56,809 nucleotides of DNA from Candidatus Poribacteria bacterium (GTDB lineage Bacteria; Poribacteria; WGA-4E; B28-G17), in assembly GCA_021162805.1 (NCBI GenBank), contig JAGGXZ010000139.1, positions 1 through 56,809 of the forward strand, given 5' to 3'. Under the pieces are notes generated by a model, which saw only the letters and a list, made by a program, of their open reading frames with translations, was not told where the DNA came from and did not search any database. The position numbers and the translations under genes were made by a program. Positions 23,858 through 29,473 of the stretch are shown piece after piece. Every line of letters begins with the position of its first letter. The stretch's first letter is position 1.

Positions 23858-25059
23858 GACTTAAGGCGGCAGATAGCATCTGTCATAACGGCGACCCGTT
23901 TCATCTGCTTAACGTCATGCACTCTCACAACATCAGCACCGTTCGCTATTGAAATCGCCACGGTGGCCGCCGTTCCCTCCAATCGCTCTTCCACAGGCAG
24001 ATCTCCCAGCGCTTTGCCTATAAAGGATTTGCGTGATGTGCCGATGAGAATCGGAGACCCTAGCGATTTGAACTCCCTCAGCCTGCGGAGTATCTCGATG
24101 TTGTCCTCATACCTCTTGCCGAAACCTATTCCAGGATCGATCATGATCCTATCTCGATCGACGCCGCCTTGAAGGGCTGCTTCGATCCTCTCATCTAGGA
24201 AGGAGTAGATCTCAGAGATAAGGTCATCATACTCAGGGGATACCTGCATGGTTTTAGGAGTGCCCTTCATATGCATCAACACCACGCCGACCTTCCCCCT
24301 TGCGGCCAGATCCACCATCCTAGGATCTCTAAGGGCTGTTATGTCGTTTATAATCGAAGCGCCGGAATCTATAGCCTCTTCAGCGACTGAAGGCTTATAT
24401 GTATCGATGGATATAGGTAGATCGATTCTTCTGGCGATCTCCTTTATGACGGGGATCACCCTTCTTTTCTCTTCATCATCATCGACCGGATCGGCGCCCG
24501 GGCGAGAGGATTCACCGCCCACATCTATGATATCGGCTCCTTCCTCGGCCATCCGCTCGGCGTGCGCTATAGCATCATCAAGCTTGAGAAATCTGCCGCC
24601 GTCCGAGAAGGAGTCGGGTGTGACGTTCAGGACCCCCATTATGAGCGTCCTTTGGCCTAGGATTATCTCCCTTCCGGCACAGTCCATACATCTTCGGCCC
24701 TCAAGTTCGTAGTTATCGATCGCCTTTCTGATTTCCTCGGCCGCTCCTTTCAACCCGAAGGGCTGAACTGAAAGCTTTTTCAGGAACCCTTCAAACTGTT
24801 TCTTAGTTCCCATGACTAGGACGGTGGTTCTTTCCGTCTCGAGCGTCAGGGTCTCCCTTGCGGTGGCGACCTCTCCCCCCAGCGAAAGCATCTCCTGTTT
24901 CATGATATTGGCGGCCGTGGTTCTAACCCCTTCGACCCTGACCAGATAATGGAGCCCTTTGGGCGTCATTATCCTGGTTCCATAGATGGTCGCGCCGATC
25001 CTTTGTATCTCCCTTTTAATCTCATCTTCACGCTCAAGCTTCAGAACCCTTGCCCTCAT
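23851..25059 (-). CDS. folP: Dihydropteroate synthase, long form
   Basis: Joins 4-aminobenzoate to the pterin pyrophosphate in folate synthesis. The enzyme domain starts near residue 138 with [15 protein letters not shown], followed by [37 protein letters not shown] and [10 protein letters not shown], with [10 protein letters not shown] near the end; all substrate-binding motifs are intact. The first 120 or so residues form an extra domain ([21 protein letters not shown] cut here) known from the long FolP form of some Firmicutes and other thermophile-related bacteria; its role is unknown. The ATG lies inside the last codons of ftsH, a 26-base overlap. Confidence 0.95.
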
Positions 25060-28000
25060 CGCTAACCTCTGTCGGGCCGTTGAACTTCGCAGGCTGTGCC
25101 TCTTCGAGGCTCGGTCTCGGGCCGAGGATCTCCTCGATCTCCTTGGCGTCGAGCACCTCCTTCTCCAGCAAAGCTTCGGCCAGCCTTTTGAGCTTGTCCA
25201 TGTTGTTTTGGATTATGCCTTTCGCCCTGTCATAACATTCGTTTATTATCCGCTTCACCTCGTTATCTATCTCAAGTGCCGTTCGCTCGCTATAATCCTT
25301 ATGTCTTGCCAACTCCTTACCCAAGAAGATCTGTTCCTCCCGTTTGCCGAAGGTAACCGGTCCGAGTTTCTCGCTCATCCCCCATTCACATACCATCTTT
25401 CTCGCCAGCTCCGTTGCCCTTTCAAAATCGTCCTTTGCGCCTGTGGTCGGATCGCCGAATATCAGCTCCTCCGCGACGCGCCCTGCAAGACGTGTGGTTA
25501 TCTCGGCCAGCAGATATCTCTTGCCGTAGTTGTGCCTCTCCTCCAAGGGTAACTTCTGGGTGATGCCAAGGGCCCTTCCTCGGGGGATAATACTGCACTT
25601 ATAATTCGGGTCTCCTTCGGGCAGCAGATGTGAGACCAAGGCGTGACCTGCCTCGTGGTAGGCGATAACCCTTTTCTCCTTATCGCTTATCAGCATGCTT
25701 CTCCTTTCGGGCCCCATCATCACCTTATCCTTGGCCTCCTCAAGGCACTCCATATCCACGAACTCCTTGTTCTTTCGGGCAGCTATAAGAGCCGCTTCGT
25801 TGACCATGTTCTCGATGTCGGCTCCGGAGAAATAGGGTGTTCCCTTTGCCAGGATTTCAATATTATCCCAGACCTCCGGTGCCGTTCTGACGTTCTTCAG
25901 GTGTATCTTGAAGATCTCAGCCCTACCCTTCACATCGGGCAGATCGACGACGATCTGTCTGTCGAATCTTCCCGGCCTCAGGAGCGCCGGATCAAGTATA
26001 TCCGGTCTGTTCGTGGCCGCGATGACGATCACGCCTTCGGAGGAGTCAAACCCGCTCATCTCGACGAGCAATTGGTTGAGCGTCTGTTCCCTCTCATCAT
26101 GCCCCCCGCCGATACCTGCTCCCCTGTATCTGCCGACGGCATCGAGCTCATCGATAAAGATTATGGCAGGTGCGTTCTTCCTGCCGGTTTCAAAGAGATC
26201 TCTCACACGACTGTTGTGAAGCAATATGGGTTTTTCACCGCCGAAGAACGCCTCATTTTCACACCCACATAGGTCATAGACATATCCATCATACGGCATA
26301 GCCACAACTTCCCTAACGATCGGGCTCTTCCATTGGTTGGGTATATCCGGCTCTTCATCCGCCAGCGGGTTACACGTTTTTCCTATTATAAGCCTCCAGT
26401 ATTTACCTCCAGGAAGCGGCTTACTTTTAATGATACGCCCTGGTTTTTGGTTCATCTCCTGGATCCCAACGGCGATACCATGCATTGAACACAACCATGC
26501 TAACTCGAGAATTAGCTGACGACTGGCGGAAGTAACGGAGAGTTTCCCCTCTTTGGTGGTATAGCCATCTCCGAGCACGTAACCTTCGAGGTACGACCTG
26601 AAATATTCGAACGGTAGATCCCATAGTATCTCAGGGATATGTTTGTTTCTGCTGCCGTTTCCACAAAGCGTGGCGAAAAACCTGCCGAGAGGAGCAGAAT
26701 GATAGGTGATGCGTACCGTGTTATCCGTCGTCTCAGTAAGCTTCGGCTCCAGATTGAATATCTTTTTCACCAGGTGAATCAAATCGAGATGTAGTTCCGT
26801 CTCGTGTTTGCCGAAGATGAATTCCACGAATTGGCCCGGGGACCTCCCCTCAGCGGTGTAATATCCCAGAAGCTTCATTAGAGCCGGTGTAACGGTCACT
26901 TTCTCCGGGAGGCCGATCTCAAAGGATCTATAGGTCAAGGGGCGTGGAATATGAACTCCCCTCTGCCAATTTCCTACGGTCGCCTGCGATACGCCTATGA
27001 TCTGAGCTATTTGGCGTTGAGACATGTCCTCAGCATGTTCTAAAGCGAACTTATACTTCTCAGCAAATTCAAACTTCTCCTCAGCGACCAGCAACACTAC
27101 AGGCTCTTCAGCTGGTTCAAACCTATGAGCTCTAACATGGTGAGGGGTACCATATTCCGGGGAGTGTTTTCCTCTCACCTTGAACGGCAGTGAGACCAAT
27201 ACATCACCGGGCTTAAGATCACGCGTGGGTTTAGCTATAATACCGTTGCGGGTTCGGACGAACACGCTATGATCGCCCGTTGTTCTCACCTTACCTCCGA
27301 GATATCGGATTTCATAGATTTCATTTACCTTGTGGCGATATACCCCATAGACACTCTTCCAGGCGCTGCACCCGAAGAACCTTTTAGACGATCCCTTAAA
27401 CTTGGATTCTTTCTCCTCGAAACCTAAAGTTTGAACGCCCTTAACTGGAACGATAAATCCCTCTTCGCCATCCCGGTAGAACTGATCTACGAACTCGCCT
27501 ATAGGCATCAACCTGGTACCCCGTTCCGATCGAATCAACACGGGGGTATCCCCTGTGACGGATGCTCCCACACCTACAAACATCTCCACGAAATCGGAGC
27601 CGCTTATGCTGAAGAAGGGAACACCGGCTTCGCCCGCCACAGCACGTGCGAGCAGGGTGTTGTGCGAGATAAATCCATTCGAAATAAAGGAATGATCGGT
27701 GGGAACGGTGAAATCGTAGACATCTGCATAACCATATTCGATAGATTGAACCGGGGAGAAGAACAGATCGATACTTGCTAATCGCGAGAGATATTCCACT
27801 TCATCCTTGCGAACTATATCTCCGAAGGCCTGCACGAATTCCTTTAGTGTATTGCGGGAAACGCGGCCTCGATCTCGCACTTTATCAATAAGCGCTGCCA
27901 ATCGACTTGTGCTTCTTCCGGATAAGCTAAGCTCCTTCCAGCATTCAACGAGTATATCGCTGATGTTGTAAAATAGGTCCACATTTGTGTTGGTTCCAAC

Positions 28001-29473
28001 GTTTGCCCTCTGCAGATATTCATCCATCAATTTCTGTTTACGCTTCAGCCTAAACCCGATCTCTCTGGCGAATTTGGGCAGATAAACACCGGAGATGGTT
28101 ATCTCATAAACCCTGTGCGGATGGTTTCGGCCAACCTCGGATTTGACGCGAAGCTTGGGAACGATACCAATGTTCAACAGCATCGCTGTTACTTGATCGG
28201 CCAACCTCTTGCTCGTCGTGCTGTAACCGAAGGCATACCGCTGGAAGTAACCGTCAGCGTCAAACAATCCCTGAAGGAACGATATCTGCACCTCTTTAGG
28301 AGCTTGTAGAACGGTGTCGGGAACTGATTTGTCATCCGCTATCTCCGCATCCTGAGTCGTTAACTCAACTCGGTTGCTTACGCTCATATTGCCATCGCCC
28401 GTCAGCAATCCCATCAGATAAGCCTGCTCCTCATCCACTTCGCTCGAATGGCCGAAGATTTGAGTGTTAAATTTAATCGCTGCGATGTCCCCCTCTTTAA
28501 GCTCGGAGAGCGGTCGGAATTCCAACCTCCCATCCTCGTTCATCATGATGATGGGGTGTTCCGGAGTACCTTCAATCGTCACCCCCTGTTTCAGCGTAAT
28601 CCGGATCGTAGGTTGTTTCCCAAGATGATACCAATGCGACGCCCGATTAACTTTGGGCTTCAACGTATTCAGATCTATCGTAGGAAGATAAGCCCCTTCA
28701 ACCATATTTGTATGGGGATCAACCCAGAAATACCTCGGAATATCCTGTATCTCAATTAGACCTTTATTGGTAAGAATGAGGGTATCACCTACGACGCATT
28801 TCCCTGTGCCGGGGGGACCGACCAGAAGCACGCCTTTTGGTATCCTTCCGCCGAGACGCTGATATTTCTTCGGATCTCTGAGGAAATCCACTACCTCTCG
28901 TAGCTCCTCCTTCGCCTCCTCGCATCCGGCCACGTCATCGAAGGTTTTCTTCGGATGCGATTCGCTGAACCTTTTGGCTCTGCTCTTGCCGAAGGAGAGG
29001 GCTTTGTTTCCCGCCCCCTGCATCTGTCTGGAGATGAAGATCATGACGGCTATGAACAACACCACAGGGAGAAGGCCGCTGAGGAGCATCGTCAGCCACT
29101 GAGGGAAGTGCGAGGAAGGCTCTATGTAGAAGGTCACACCGTATTTCAACAGCTCCTCCTCAAGCGGATAGTTGGAGAACGGATCCCTCGGTATCCTGAA
29201 CCTCTCAAACGGCCTGGACTCTATGACCTGCCTTCCCTGAACGGGGAGATACTGCGGTTCGGTGAACTCCCCCTCGATCCACTCCTTACCTATATATACC
29301 CTCGCTACCTTCCCCTGTTCGATGAGCTTATGAAATTCACTGAAGGGAAGGTTATCGTATGTCTGAGCTTTTTGAGGTCTAAGTATCTGATAGGATGCGA
29401 AGACGAGAATAGATACCAGAATGAGCCAAACAAGCATCCCTCTGGCATTTCTGTTCACGAGAAATCCCCTCAC
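25034..29473 (-). CDS. ftsH: FtsH membrane protease interrupted by two inteins
   Basis: ATP-dependent zinc metalloprotease that degrades membrane and short-lived proteins. The 1479-residue product contains 649 residues of FtsH and two inteins of 380 and 450 residues. FtsH parts in order: membrane helix (13-30), periplasmic domain, second helix (132-148), AAA domain with GPPGTGK (residues 219-225) then intein 1 (226-605), 32 residues ending in the pore motif MFVGVGA, intein 2 (638-1087), then [22 protein letters not shown], the SRH region, and the protease domain with HEAGH (1273-1277) and a later aspartate. Both inteins must splice out for a working enzyme. The first GTG is at 29473; a GTG at 29458, six to seven bases after GAGGGG, may be the true start. 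A good promoter lies upstream. It overlaps folP. Confidence 0.95.
26213..27562 (-). other. Intein 2 in FtsH, beside the pore-loop motif, with DOD endonuclease and helix-turn-helix
   Basis: A 450-residue intein between FVGVGA and SRVRDLF. It starts with serine ([10 protein letters not shown], block A), has block B with [12 protein letters not shown] (T-x-x-H), an inserted helix-turn-helix ([19 protein letters not shown]), LAGLIDADG-type motifs LLGYYTAEG and LEGYVLGDG about 95 residues apart, block F with [16 protein letters not shown], and ends LLHN with serine as the +1 residue. Ser1, TxxH, final His-Asn and Ser+1 are all present, so splicing looks competent. The spacing of the endonuclease motifs is normal, so the endonuclease may be active. 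Confidence 0.93.
27659..28798 (-). other. Intein 1 in FtsH Walker A, with shortened DOD endonuclease
   Basis: A 380-residue intein inserted after the lysine of GPPGTGK, directly before the threonine of the ATP-binding loop. It begins [13 protein letters not shown] (block A, Cys1), has block B with [10 protein letters not shown] (T-x-x-H), DOD motifs MGLLTGDG and LQGLFDADG, and block F with [16 protein letters not shown] ending ISHN, with threonine as the +1 residue. All splicing residues are present. The two DOD motifs are only about 47 residues apart, roughly half the usual distance, so part of the homing endonuclease is missing and it is probably inactive. Confidence 0.93.

Follow-up and report, generated by a model that had tools for sequence, protein, structure and literature searches.

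An FtsH gene of Candidatus Poribacteria with inteins at the Walker A loop and the pore-loop motif, probably acquired separately as homing elements

The window examined here is a 56,809-nucleotide stretch of contig JAGGXZ010000139.1 (assembly GCA_021162805.1), which belongs to a Candidatus Poribacteria genome bin of 4.35 Mb (G000; 232 contigs, ∼95% complete). It contains an ftsH open reading frame into which two inteins are inserted in frame (Table 1). The reading frame is continuous, with no stops within its 1479 codons, and the gene next after it encodes FolP, as is also the case at the locus of a class-mate (L002 in G004, Dive96_bin1.70).

Table 1. Positions of the ftsH gene and its parts in the window
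Feature	Positions	Strand	Remarks
ftsH ORF with two in-frame inteins	25034..29473	(-)	1479 aa precursor, GTG start
N-extein, FtsH residues 1-225	28799..29473	(-)	membrane/FtsH_ext region, ends GPPGTGK of Walker A
Intein 1 (site a, Walker A GK^T), residues 226-605	27659..28798	(-)	380 aa
Middle extein, 32 aa	27563..27658	(-)	
Intein 2 (site b, FVGVGA^S), residues 638-1087	26213..27562	(-)	450 aa
HTH segment in intein 2	26900-27060	(-)	between splicing domain and endonuclease
C-extein	25037..26212	(-)	Walker B (FIDE), second region of homology, lid, HEAGH zinc protease (M41)

The host protein is a full-length match to the FtsH family (NCBIfam TIGR01241 FtsH_fam, 785 bits against a cut-off of 600). 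Pfam detects FtsH_ext, AAA, AAA_lid_3, and Peptidase_M41, together with two stretches each of Intein_splicing and LAGLIDADG_3, all exceeding their gathering scores, and the NCBIfam models intein_Nterm (both inteins) and intein_Cterm (intein 1) also score above cut-off. When both inteins are removed in silico, the result is an FtsH of 649 aa in which GPPGTGK/T (Walker A), FVGVGA/S (pore), FIDE (Walker B), and HEAGH (HExxH) are all kept. The GC content of the inteins (47-49%; 0.47 and 0.49 as fractions) is below that of the exteins (53-59%). Intein 1 is joined to its flanks at GPPGTGK^CVVGDT and GFISHN^TLLARAV, where the caret marks the junction, and its class 1 residues are complete (C1, TPEH in block B, H379-N380, and Thr+1); the junctions of intein 2 are MFVGVGA^SVTGDT and ILLHN^SRVRDLF, with an equally complete set (S1, TGDH in block B, H449-N450, and Ser+1). 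A HINT splicing domain is indicated by the two stretches matched by the Intein_splicing profile and, for intein 1, by a fold match. A class 3 mechanism was considered for intein 2 and rejected on motifs assigned by eye: residue 1 is Ser1, block F has the sequence VYDL, and the Cys two positions further on is not conserved in G004. A preliminary description of this DNA had placed two inteins between the Lys and Thr of Walker A and at FVGVGAS, and its positions are correct to the residue; its lengths of 380, 450, and 649 residues follow exactly from the ORF boundaries, and the splicing residues it called complete (Cys1...HN/Thr and Ser1...HN/Ser) are those found here. Its assignment of intein 2 to the pore motif holds for the FVGVGAS loop and not for the pore residue itself, since site b lies five residues past the pore Phe.

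In class 1 inteins, an N-S or N-O acyl shift at residue 1 (C1 or S1) leads to transesterification to the +1 residue (here T+1 or S+1), and cyclization of the Asn after the penultimate His is then followed by an S/O-N shift. With these residues in place, splicing of both FtsH inteins is predicted: after translation, each would excise itself and rejoin its flanks, through C1...HN/T at Walker A and S1...HN/S in the pore loop, and the product would be an FtsH of 649 residues in which the Walker A, pore, Walker B, and HEAGH motifs are all intact. Intein 1 lies between the catalytic Lys and Thr of Walker A, and for this reason productive ATP binding is not expected of the precursor. There is one M41 gene in G000, and hence a single ftsH was found, so splicing must suffice for whatever role FtsH has here. 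The proposal in the preliminary description that FtsH depends on two splicing events gains support from the split Walker A and the sole ftsH, and we infer that FtsH activity should require splicing of both inteins.

In FtsH, intein 1 was found in the window only. Over 387 genomes, the pattern GPPGTGKC matches in the window only, in a scan that covers AAA proteins with the exact motif and inteins beginning with Cys. The closest cellular relatives of intein 1 are MutS inteins at ITGPNMSGK^STYLRQ in three other Poribacteria (L140 in G001:C177, L124 in G004:C212, and L141 in G006:C31), that of G001 being the top BLAST relative (E = 5e-53), and the MutS of the window's own genome (G000:C95, 879 aa) has an empty Walker A site. 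Full-length phage relatives also sit at Walker A, in RecA (GPPSAGK^T and GKPGGGK^S), terminase (TerL, GFGK^T), and helicase (TGGGK^T), and others are found on E. coli-group plasmid records annotated as RecA or LAGLIDADG endonuclease. Viral contigs gave no match when searched with intein 1 alone and 80 loci when searched with an alignment (A3); at most full-length loci the insertion directly follows the Lys of Walker A, usually as GK^T/S, in terminases and helicases, and at the remaining ones it lies 3 residues upstream or in other terminase motifs. Some members of the family are inserted elsewhere: in RNR, in GyrA, and in terminases at positions other than the Walker A Lys. This distribution suggests a lineage that resides mostly at the Walker A loop and can colonize non-homologous P-loop ATPases (MutS, RecA, terminase, helicases, and FtsH). 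The tree places intein 1 beside the P-loop inteins of MutS and phage, a position that lacks support (54/74); it rejects an affiliation with the inteins of DnaB or V-ATPase and does not separate a MutS from a phage source, for which AU tests are uninformative. A nested position inside the MutS inteins was dropped, as neither the tree nor the AU tests place intein 1 within the MutS or the phage group. A jump may have run from MutS or phage to FtsH.

The endonuclease of intein 1 is damaged. Both LAGLIDADG motifs are present but 47 aa apart, compared with 84-103 aa in 21 relatives and with the ∼90-100 aa expected of an intact endonuclease; ∼45 aa are missing between them, which amounts to a deletion of the first endonuclease half. 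With its endonuclease deleted, intein 1 is probably a fixed passenger. An AlphaFold model (pLDDT 84.5, pTM 0.87) finds its best PDB matches in the PI-PfuI and TliVMA inteins, and RadA inteins also match.

Site b is more widely filled. Among 146 genomes, FtsH ORFs of ∼950-1030 aa were noted only in G001 (same family), G004 (same class), and G103. The first two carry a homologous intein exactly at site b with site a vacant; the long ORFs of G103, G106, and G113 are not intein-bearing and reflect upstream or tail extensions (upstream in G103). The pattern FVGVGA[S/T/C]xxGD, run over the 387 genomes, matches in the window, G001, G004, and G277, the last from another phylum, and in the 47 genomes of that phylum site b is filled in nine (G277, G403, G404, G407, G412, G414, G416, G417, and G420). 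Site-b inteins thus occur in twelve FtsH genes, the window counted, from Poribacteria and one other phylum. Sites a and b are empty in most relatives, including L003, G003, G006, G009, and G010, and most other Poribacteria are vacant. The comparison of FtsH homologues in related genomes, which the preliminary description had recommended, thus yields site b in G001, G004, and the other phylum and site a in the window only.

The endonuclease of intein 2 looks intact: its LAGLIDADG motifs, LLGYYTAEG and LEGYVLGDG, are 94 aa apart, within the ∼90-100 aa range, and have the acidic residue. The HTH segment listed in Table 1 has HTH-like counterparts in the site-b copies of the other phylum and is missing in G004. 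Across site b, the endonuclease is intact with the HTH (window), present without the HTH segment (G004), degenerate (G001), or absent (G277), a series from intact to absent that fits the homing cycle. Most site-b copies retain an endonuclease that reads as active. The predicted fold of intein 2 (pLDDT 38.5, from a two-sequence alignment) is too poor for fold matching.

The site-b inteins are more alike between the two phyla than their hosts would predict. Intein 2 shares 58-61% identity with the intact copies of the other phylum, where the FtsH cores share 63-66%, and 44% with the G277 mini-intein. Against the class-mate G004 the values are 54% for the intein and 78% for the core, and against the degenerate copy of the family-mate G001 they are 50% and 88%. 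For pairs within the other phylum whose cores are 75-78% identical, site-b intein identity is 56-66%, and it is by this measure that the similarity between phyla exceeds what the host core predicts. The ratio of intein to extein branch lengths is 0.52-0.62 between the window and the other phylum, 0.70-1.85 within that phylum, and 2.55 for the window and G004. Discordance between the tree of the intein and that of the host is not significant (AU p = 0.08 for the window with G004, and the window and G001 group together in both); strict topological discordance was accordingly given up as an argument, since a single Poribacteria group is not significantly rejected. We therefore draw the case for transfer from identities and branch-length ratios, and by these the site-b intein has likely spread horizontally between phyla. 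Intein 2 belongs to an FtsH-specific site-b lineage that is shared by two or more phyla, and it appears to be mobile still.

A third site is occupied in the other phylum. In the FtsH of G277 (L181:1235-5341 (-), G277:C164) there are again two inteins: site b is filled by a mini-intein of 184 aa, and site c (RNAP^C...HN^CIVFVDE), immediately before Walker B, by a LAGLIDADG intein of 495 aa. Among the 47 genomes, site c is filled in G277, G409 (L263), and G410 (L264). Within one genus (g314), the alleles comprise b (G407), c (G409 and G410), and empty (G406 and G408). Inteins recur in FtsH, in two phyla and at no fewer than three sites (a, b, and c). The preliminary description knew of no double intein in FtsH; in the open-access literature searched we found no report of an FtsH intein, and the novelty is provisional, but the arrangement is not unique because G277 carries b and c. 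No intein-containing FtsH model is among the NCBIfam matches, though NCBIfam has "exception" models of this type for GyrA, RtcB, and Tes.

The reading that we favor, at a probability of roughly 90%, is that these are two separately acquired selfish homing inteins at different stages of decay, which should splice to leave a 649-residue FtsH. Two unrelated class-1-type inteins would have entered the single ftsH gene independently as homing elements. Their selfish character is argued from patchy presence, vacant sites in close relatives, the endonuclease decay series, and similarity across phyla. Chance is excluded because relatives hold a homologous intein exactly at site b and sites a and b are empty in most. 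Exact deletion is almost the only way to lose an insertion at an invariant codon of a probably indispensable gene, and nucleotide motifs of this kind are sufficiently conserved to act as homing sites; together, these would account for the persistence of the inteins.

The preliminary description had suggested that splicing could act as a switch for membrane-protein quality control, that is, that one or both inteins respond to stress, redox, temperature, or membrane state and so set the amount of active FtsH. Precedents are Mycobacterium smegmatis DnaBi1 (PMC6195587) and Pyrococcus horikoshii RadA (PMC5790916), and intein 1 occupies the same kind of site as DnaBi1 and starts with Cys1, while its endonuclease is damaged, a condition that has been argued to favor co-option (PMC6195587). 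However, site a is filled in 1 of the 387 genomes scanned with GPPGTGKC and vacant in the family-mate G001, site b is patchy even where its host phylum is sampled at the level of a genus, with an active-looking endonuclease in most copies, and no conserved regulatory feature or sign of conditional splicing is seen in the sequence, which by itself is not decisive. We found no positive evidence for such a switch, and the distribution fits selfish elements; conditional splicing is improbable, and its more specific form, in which the P-loop intein was immobilized by endonuclease loss and then co-opted so that redox or membrane stress controls active FtsH, has an equally slim chance. Even less credible is that one or both inteins no longer splice, leaving a pseudogene or fragments that act separately: the intein 1 endonuclease has decayed, yet the decay is confined to the endonuclease, every splicing residue and extein catalytic motif is retained, the 1479 codons lack stops, and this is the sole ftsH found. 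An assembly artefact or contamination of the metagenome bin, to which the 232 contigs and the lower intein GC might point, is the least probable explanation, given the unbroken frame over both junctions with exact splicing residues, the recurrence of the site-b insertion in independent assemblies (G001, G004, and another phylum), and the shared FtsH-FolP order of the window and L002.

Two inteins in one ATPase have parallels, and P-loop insertions and multi-intein ATPases are already well known; ∼70% of bacterial and archaeal inteins are in ATP-binding proteins (PMC5050341). M. smegmatis DnaB has two inteins, DnaBi1 at the P-loop, which is inhibited by H2O2, and DnaBi2 at the H4 motif (PMC6195587). 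As in the FtsH described here, two unrelated inteins interrupt an essential ATPase; one is at the P-loop and has the P-loop Ser/Thr as its +1 residue, and one intein lacks a working endonuclease while the other retains it; unlike FtsH, DnaB is a helicase, and DnaBi1 is a class 3 intein with redox control known from experiment, whereas the FtsH inteins look like class 1. Mycobacteriophage TerL likewise offers several sites in one ATPase (PMC5050341): TerL1-a, the "classic" P-loop insertion that separates Lys from Thr, matches FtsH site a, and TerL1-e, at Walker B, matches site c. Phage terminases also hold relatives of intein 1, but TerL is a DNA packaging motor and not an AAA+ protease. The RadA intein of Pyrococcus/Thermococcus is a P-loop intein of an ATPase that matches intein 1 in sequence (E = 3e-8), and P. 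horikoshii RadA splicing is temperature-dependent by experiment (PMC5790916); it differs in being a mini-intein without an endonuclease in a recombinase host. The Poribacteria MutS inteins (G001, G004, and G006) share the phylum and the GK^S/T position with intein 1 and differ in host and in their longer endonuclease region. The site-b inteins of G001, G004, and the other phylum share with intein 2 the site, Ser1...HN/Ser, and 50-61% identity (44% for G277); none of these FtsHs also has site a filled, some lack the endonuclease, and the second site in G277 is c.

The window's genome is rich in inteins elsewhere. Intein_splicing matches also occur in DnaB, class II RNR (two inteins), RtcB, and FolE. 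The class II ribonucleotide reductase (L099:1388-5461 (+), G000:C192) has inteins at NP^C...SN^CGEQ and SK^C...HN^TINLPHE; the DnaB intein (L098, G000:C142) has 171 aa without a full endonuclease and the RtcB intein (L101, G000:C190) has 449 aa. GTP cyclohydrolase I (FolE; L100:1430-2773 (+), G000:C19) carries an apparent intein, SLCIHG...VKN^CEHHLLPF, with a provisional N-terminal boundary, and the literature search found no report of a FolE intein.

FtsH is a membrane protease outside DNA metabolism, and it appears to have been invaded repeatedly, at three sites and in two phyla, in a manner for which we found no description. Its inteins form a natural test set, with sites a, b, and c, endonucleases that are intact, shrunken, or absent, and empty sites within one genus, that addresses how inteins choose sites in ATPases, cross phyla, and decay.
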